Below are positions 59,045 to 62,274 of a stretch of DNA of 64,000 nucleotides, piece by piece. Under the pieces are notes generated by a model. That model did no database searches. It saw nothing but the letters and a program-made list of their open reading frames with translations, and was not told the DNA's origin. Positions within the stretch are counted from its first letter, which is position 1. Each line of letters starts with the position of its first letter. Position numbers and translations under genes: made by a program. The DNA is taken from the NCBI GenBank assembly GCA_022826925.1, contig JAJDTX010000164.1, positions 1 to 64,000 of the forward strand, written 5' to 3'. Origin of the DNA: Bryobacterales bacterium (GTDB lineage Bacteria > Acidobacteriota > Terriglobia > Bryobacterales > UBA6623).

Positions 59045-60271
59045 ATGCTGTTGTTGCGCCACATTTGGGCCCCGCTGATCCTGGCAGCGGCCTGCGGCCT
59101 GCAGGCACAGGACCTGTTCGACGCCTCGCTCGGAAGCCCGCTGCGCTTTCATCCCAGCGACCGCGCCGTGCTGGCGGGCGACAGCAACCGCAGCGACTTC
59201 GAATGCCAGGTGGAGCCGCAGTCGCCCCTGTTGGGTTTCGACCTAAAGTTCACGGCCGGGTACGTGGTTCGGGTGCCCGCCCGCACCGTTGGATCCGCCG
59301 GTGACAGCCTGCGCATCCTGTTCCGCGTCAAGCCGGCCGGCGCCACTCGCGCCCCGGCCGTTTACTTCCGCCAGAATTTCGACATCCCGCACGTCACCGC
59401 CGACAGCGGCACGGCCGCCTTCCCGGGCCGCTTCGTCGTCGGCCCGGGGCGGTACGAGATCGATTGGCTGATGCGGAACCGGCAGGGCCGGGTCTGTTCG
59501 GCACATTGGACGGCCAATGCCCAAATGCCCTCCCGCACGGCGCTGCTGGCCGCGGCGGCACCCACGAATCTGATCCGGCCCTACCGCGAGCACACCTTTG
59601 CGGACGAGCCGCCGGTGGCGCGCTCGACAGAATCACCCGGCGGGTTGCATATCGCACTGCTGGTCAACCTGGCGCCGCTGGATCGCAGCCGCTTCAAGCT
59701 CAACGCTCACGAAATCGAGAGCCTCGTCACAATGCTCCGCACGCTCCACCGCGAGCCCAGCCTGGGGCTGTTCAGCCTGACAGCGTTCCATGCTTACGAC
59801 CGGCAGGCGGTGTATGCGGTCGAGCGCCAGCCGCGGCTGGACTTCGCAGCGCTGGGAAAGGCCATCGAGTCCATGTCACCAGGAGTGGTCGACGTGGACG
59901 CCTTGGCGGACGAGGGCGGCGACGAGCGCTTCCTCTCGTCTCTGCTTAACAGTGCCTTCGACGCAACGCGCGAGCGTCCCGACGCCATCGTGATCATGGG
60001 GCCGAAGATCGACCGCGATGCCGCAATCTCGCCGGAGCTGCTGAACATCGCGGCCCAGCCCGGGGCGATCTTCCAGTTTTCCTTCAACCGCAACCCGCGC
60101 AGCTACCCGTGGCCCGGGGCGATCGAGGCGGCGCTGCGGCCGCACGGGCTGGTCCATTCCAACGTGGCCCGCCCGCAAGACTTCAGCCGCGCCTTGGCCG
60201 GTTTCCTGGACGCGATGGGCGCCTCGCCCGCCGACGCCCGCGCCGAAGTCGCCGGCCCCCCTGCGAACTGA
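59045..60271 (+). CDS. Secreted VWFA-like protein of acidobacterial type
   Basis: The 408-residue protein has a signal peptide (HIWAPLILAAACGLQAQ), an N-terminal beta-rich region (GFDLKFTAGYVVRVPARTVG) and a C-terminal half. The C-terminal half (about 185-395) matches VWFA-related domains found in Acidobacteria: LHIALLVNLAPLDRSRFKLN, LSSLLNSAFDATRERPDAIVIMG and SYPWPGAIEAALRPHG. The metal-ion MIDAS DxSxS pattern is not intact, so it probably binds through another surface. It starts 7 nt after ltaE, suggesting one transcript. Function is unknown. Confidence 0.75.
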   Translation: MLLLRHIWAPLILAAACGLQAQDLFDASLGSPLRFHPSDRAVLAGDSNRSDFECQVEPQSPLLGFDLKFTAGYVVRVPARTVGSAGDSLRILFRVKPAGATRAPAVYFRQNFDIPHVTADSGTAAFPGRFVVGPGRYEIDWLMRNRQGRVCSAHWTANAQMPSRTALLAAAAPTNLIRPYREHTFADEPPVARSTESPGGLHIALLVNLAPLDRSRFKLNAHEIESLVTMLRTLHREPSLGLFSLTAFHAYDRQAVYAVERQPRLDFAALGKAIESMSPGVVDVDALADEGGDERFLSSLLNSAFDATRERPDAIVIMGPKIDRDAAISPELLNIAAQPGAIFQFSFNRNPRSYPWPGAIEAALRPHGLVHSNVARPQDFSRALAGFLDAMGASPADARAEVAGPPAN

Positions 60272-61803: not shown

Positions 61804-61809
61804 GTGCGC

Positions 61810-62274
61810 ATGGGCGATCTCATCCACACTTCCAAGATCCGCATCCACCAGGATCAGCCCCCCGAGCGCCGCGCGTACATCGAAGGCTTTGAAGAGCCGC
61901 TAGAGTTCGGCGTCCACGGCGGGATCAAGCACTTCTACGGCATGGAGCCGCGGCGCGACCTTCCGGCCACGCTCGACCACATGGTCGCAGCGGTGGGCGG
62001 TTGACTGACCGGCACTCTGTCAGGGGCCCTGGCAGTCCGTAAGATTCCGAACCATCCCGATCGCGTCCAGAGCGACATCGAGGGGGACATCGAAAACGTC
62101 GACGGCGTCATGCGCATCACGCGGATCCGCGTGCACTACCGCCTGAAGATCCCGGCCGGCACCCGCGACCGCGCGCAGCGCGCGCTGGACACCCACCAGG
62201 TAAAGTGCCCGGCCGCAATGAGCGTCAAGGGATCGATCGACATCGAGACCAGCGCGGACATCGAGGAGATCTGA
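61810..62274 (+). CDS. OsmC-family thiol peroxidase-like selenoprotein (in-frame TGA read as Sec)
   Basis: Read through one TGA at 62002-62004, the frame encodes 154 residues with a complete OsmC/YhfA-like fold. The N-terminal half is IHTSKIRIHQDQPPERRAYI, then LEFGVHGGIKHFYGMEPRRD and LPATLDHMVAAVGG. The codon after GG is TGA, then LTGTLSGALAVRKIP. The C-terminal half is VMRITRIRVHYRLKIPAGT and RAQRALDTHQVKCPAAMSV. OsmC proteins use two cysteines, in a (A/G)GCLTxTL and a KCPxxxSL context, to reduce hydroperoxides. The TGA is exactly at the first cysteine and the second Cys is present. The downstream frame shows no other stop or frameshift and ends at TGA 62272. A SECIS-like hairpin follows. 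Sec is therefore the best reading; a nonsense pseudogene is the alternative. Confidence 0.85.
62017..62035 (+). promoter_or_regulatory. Bacterial SECIS-like hairpin downstream of the recoded TGA
   Basis: CTGTCAG (62017-62023) pairs with CTGGCAG (62029-62035) in a 7-bp stem with one G-U pair, closing a 5-nt loop GGGCC. The stem begins 12 nt and the loop 19 nt after the TGA. The E. coli fdhF element has an upper stem-loop about 11 nt after the TGA and a loop containing GGUC. SelB recognises such a loop with guanines at its start. The element lies entirely within the coding frame, as in bacteria. Confidence 0.75.

Follow-up and report, generated by a model that had tools for sequence, protein, structure and literature searches.

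A predicted selenoprotein of the OsmC fold in Acidobacteriota, from a subfamily with the motif U[LM]xGT

The window analysed here is a stretch of 64,000 nucleotides from the genome of a Bryobacterales bacterium (an assembly of 5.97 Mb in 196 contigs, 93% complete), with MAGs under the labels Bryobacterales or Terriglobia as its closest named relatives. Close to its end, on the forward strand, lies an OsmC-like gene (61810..62274) that starts with an ATG at 61810 and gives 154 residues if the TGA at codon 65 (62002..62004) is read through, a frame that is kept in dozens of genomes. The gene closes with another TGA (62272..62274), a true stop that is TAA or TAG at the same place in several relatives. 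The preliminary description of this DNA had reported a 154-codon frame with a single internal TGA at 62002 and one OsmC fold running across both sides of it, and both statements held: the match to Pfam OsmC (PF02566) covers residues 55-147 and spans the TGA (E = 5e-11), and its score of 43.3 bits, over a cut-off of 27.5, places the protein in the OsmC superfamily. Cys133 (62206..62208, forward strand), the second of the two OsmC cysteines and the resolving one, is intact in KCPAAMSV, as had also been claimed, and is invariant in our alignment A1. The expectation that gene callers would return 64-66 residues agrees with a plain list of open reading frames, which contains only a 66-aa fragment (61804-62004), and automatic annotation very likely cuts this gene short because no NCBIfam model covers its subfamily. 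A scan of the 64-kb window for the curated RNA families of Rfam found none.

The internal TGA is conserved to a degree that bears directly on its meaning. All 12 orthologues of the taxonomic family have exactly one TGA, at the same codon, and the same is true of the 14 loci (14 out of 14) found by scanning ca. 85,000 species genomes, the most distant of which (ca. 42% identity) come from an Eisenbacteria MAG and bacterium HR33, outside the phylum. A sample of 247 genomes from the phylum yielded 23 full-length matches in 22 genomes, all with the TGA, and among 299 genomes of the class TGA forms were present in 62, and full-length Cys forms in four. Random stops or frameshifts in close relatives had been named beforehand as a result that would refute the selenoprotein reading; none besides the TGA at exactly codon 65 was seen in full-length copies among relatives. 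Downstream of the TGA, dN/dS was ca. 0.08-0.30 in eight pairs, and by this measure the protein part past the TGA is under purifying selection. A pseudogene or a sequencing error, that is, a nonsense change in an ordinary Cys-type OsmC gene, would fit a codon that is one base away from TGC or TGT and that would truncate an OsmC protein at position 65, but error is untenable because the same TGA recurs in many independently assembled genomes of several families and beyond the phylum, and with selection acting downstream and full-length copies free of other stops we give this explanation practically no chance.

The hairpin CUGUCAG-GGGCC-CUGGCAG (62017..62035, forward strand) is found where it had first been noticed, 12 nt past the TGA, with a stem of 7 bp, a 5-nt apical loop (62024-62028) that starts 19 nt from the UGA, and a folding energy of -12.0 kcal/mol, all within the limits for bacterial SECIS elements quoted in PMC13188914. 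We rejected its stability as evidence, since the folding z was -1.08, 26% of random synonymous encodings give an equal or better fold, and a G-loop stem of such length occurs in 5%; the hairpin by itself is not beyond chance. What is above chance is the conservation of its codons. Every base of codons 64-75, which comprise the TGA and the hairpin, is identical in 11 genomes, and in codons 66-75 all 10 degenerate codons whose amino acid is conserved are identical, against 22 of 101 gene-wide (P = 3.4e-8); most conserved codons outside this tract show synonymous variation.

The commonest hairpin in the relatives is a different one, GGCGCGC-UGGAA-GCGCGCC, with the loop 25 nt past the UGA. It keeps 6.2 of its 7 pairs, and its two apical positions are paired in 55 of 58 sequences each, including exchanges of A-U for G-C. 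A proximal register, with the loop starting 17-20 nt past the UGA, is found in the clade of the window, in L051/L054/L056 and in L055/L057/L073, with the distal stem largely gone; L101 was also called proximal by a simple scorer, yet it retains most of the distal stem. The hairpin would appear to have shifted between two registers under a nearly fixed protein sequence, and two registers in one orthologous gene offer a natural experiment on the co-evolution of SelB and SECIS.

A selenoprotein in a bacterium calls for a genome that also has selA, selB, selC and selD, and the preliminary description had proposed a search for them. All four are present: selA (520 bits), selB (371 bits), selD (302 bits) and a tRNA-Sec with the anticodon UCA (71 bits; tRNA-SeC (tca) in ARAGORN). 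They are located on four separate contigs (L001, L009, L016, L022), the tRNA-Sec being flanked by genes without an evident link to selenium. The selD gene (L022, G000:C190:32695-33606) carries an in-frame fusion, at the N-terminal side, to a domain that reads as FAD-dependent oxidoreductase-like, and has Cys instead of Sec near the start (MRCRGCASK). The genome also has a second selenoprotein gene (L142, G000:C133:38718-39992, reverse strand), a molybdopterin oxidoreductase of the formate dehydrogenase alpha type with one in-frame TGA inside the formate-dehydrogenase motif CNRTUHAPSVAGL, followed by the hairpin GUCGCC-GGUCU-GGCGAC, whose GGUCU loop is 18 nt past the UGA. Given this machinery and the second selenoprotein gene, this genome very likely makes use of Sec decoding. 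The SECIS of E. coli fdhF and that of L142 are, like the hairpin of the OsmC-like gene, short, with a 5-nt loop starting with GG 18-19 nt past the UGA; the hairpin described here differs from them in its loop (GGGCC vs GGUCU) and has a stem of 7 bp. A coding-potential scan of ca. 0.44 Mb of the genome for further genes with an in-frame TGA gave 11 candidates, among which only the OsmC-like gene also had an 8-bp hairpin at the spacing given in PMC13188914. The remaining ones look like antisense or adjacent frames and were discarded.

In the family tree, a quick one with many open forks, Sec is found throughout save for one Cys clade (L064-L067, SH-aLRT 94), the exact place of which is unsure. 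The proposed check that column 65 be Cys in all homologues has to be put differently: Cys is present there in this clade and in more distant OsmC proteins, so that an in-frame UGA at one kept codon is accompanied by Cys homologues in that column, and within the subfamily column 65 is almost always Sec. Three of the four genomes with the Cys clade (G119, G143, G271) have the Cys form only and are without selB and tRNA-Sec, and the fourth (G115) retains the Sec machinery together with a Sec paralogue. In the class sample selB was detected in 60 of the 62 Sec genomes, compared with 156 of the other 237 (P = 6.5e-8, a value that ignores relatedness). This enrichment, and Cys alone where the machinery is gone, would be expected if TGA means Sec. 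Neither selB in the Sec genomes G032 (88% complete) and G055 (82% complete) nor tRNA-Sec in G055 and G572 was found, gaps that are most simply attributed to incomplete assemblies. Besides subgroup A, these OsmC selenoproteins form another subgroup (subgroup B, L069-L108, UMxGTFGGALEARxIDAS) that is widespread in the class. The number of Sec copies rises to two or three in some genomes (G059, G303), and G099 and G084 each have two copies of subgroup A.

One could also think of a reassigned stop or of leaky readthrough, the TGA standing for Trp, Cys or another residue with no selenocysteine involved, as the frame is open across it. However, the Sec machinery of the genome is complete, TGA also serves as the true stop of the same gene, the SECIS codons are synonymously frozen and Cys takes the place of the TGA only in the clade whose Cys-only genomes have neither selB nor tRNA-Sec, and we consider this option very improbable. 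The product of the gene is almost certainly a selenoprotein with the OsmC/Ohr fold and with Sec at codon 65. In the cell, SelB with GTP and Sec-tRNA-Sec would bind the hairpin just 3' of the UGA, and selenocysteine would be inserted at this codon.

As for the function, the AlphaFold2 model (pLDDT 97) matches the OsmC/Ohr structures of the PDB with Z of 13-15, and by alignment to 4noz Sec65 corresponds to the peroxidatic and Cys133 to the resolving cysteine. Among 40 homologues, residue 65 (Sec read as Cys), Cys133, H36, D56, G68, T69, L74, R77 and R124 are invariant. The protein shares with the Ohr/OsmC Cys peroxidases (TIGR03561, TIGR03562; 1n2f, 1nye, 1ukk) the fold (Z ca. 13) and both catalytic Cys positions, but the first of them is Sec here and the scores are under the curated cut-offs, with 24.1 bits against 85.8 for TIGR03562 and no match to TIGR03561. 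The fold and the catalytic pair suggest a Sec-dependent peroxidase, and we think it reasonably likely that the activity is that of a peroxidase with an (organic) hydroperoxide as substrate, although the substrate is uncertain because the score is so far below the cut-offs of the curated OsmC/Ohr peroxidases. Sec65 would play the part of the peroxidatic Cys and Cys133 that of the resolving thiol. The most likely reaction is the reduction of an (organic) hydroperoxide, or of some related oxidised compound, that passes through a selenenic acid and a selenylsulfide between Sec and Cys, with recycling by a dithiol, for example lipoyl or thioredoxin. It is less likely, but a possibility to be kept in mind, that the selenoprotein is a thiol oxidoreductase or a YhfA-like redox protein instead. 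The weak scores on the peroxidase models speak for this, as does the best structural match, 2onf (Z 15.4), an OsmC-like protein of unproven function; besides, D56, nine residues before Sec, occupies the place of a Glu in YhfA-type proteins. Against it, both Ohr/OsmC cysteine positions are retained and a Sec-Cys pair in an OsmC fold suits peroxide reduction. The protein, a small and probably stress-protecting enzyme of marine Acidobacteriota, appears to have Sec in place of the Cys of its relatives.

In most selenoprotein families the members have mainly Cys, with Sec scattered among them. This OsmC subfamily looks like the reverse of that pattern, as Sec seems ancestral and kept across the phylum, with Cys in one clade. 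OsmC-like selenoproteins as such are not new, and the preliminary description was right that they had been proposed from marine metagenomes: three sequences from the Sargasso Sea with the motif UxxT (COG1765/PF02566) were predicted in 2005 (PMC1088965), the family was predicted again in the GOS survey (PMC2398784), and it is listed in reviews of 2022 and 2026 (PMC9312934, PMC13188914). The gene described here resembles them in having Sec in an OsmC fold and a UGA followed by a bSECIS, but its motif is U[LM]xGT instead of UxxT, with an invariant Gly at +3 and Thr at +4, a distinction drawn at the level of the motif. It also shares the OsmC fold with NCBIfam NF041052 (OsmC_like_Se, curated as "(seleno)protein"), whose cut-off of 95 bits it does not reach (16.0 bits; members of the subgroup score 12-28). 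Within Acidobacteriota the matches to NF041052 have no in-frame stop, except for a weak one with one TGA. A full-text search, which covered only a minority of subscription papers, found no report of an OsmC selenoprotein in Acidobacteriota. Judged by its motif, U[LM]xGT, and by its NCBIfam score, this is a distinct OsmC selenoprotein subfamily without an NCBIfam model, in which Sec is apparently ancestral. More broadly, we consider it likely that this is a second, uncurated OsmC subfamily, ancestrally Sec across Acidobacteriota (plus Eisenbacteria and the HR33 lineage), that turned to Cys later where the machinery was lost and in which the SECIS moved between two positions of one coding frame in separate lineages.

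Membership of the gene in an operon was considered and dropped, as the sulfatase and RapZ/HPF neighbours are common to the genus only; the RapZ/HPF neighbours are also found in G002, and relatives outside the genus have different surroundings. Between a beta-eliminating lyase and the sulfatase, the window also contains a gene for a 408-aa protein (59045-60268) that has no Pfam match and is conserved within the genus at 56-93% identity.
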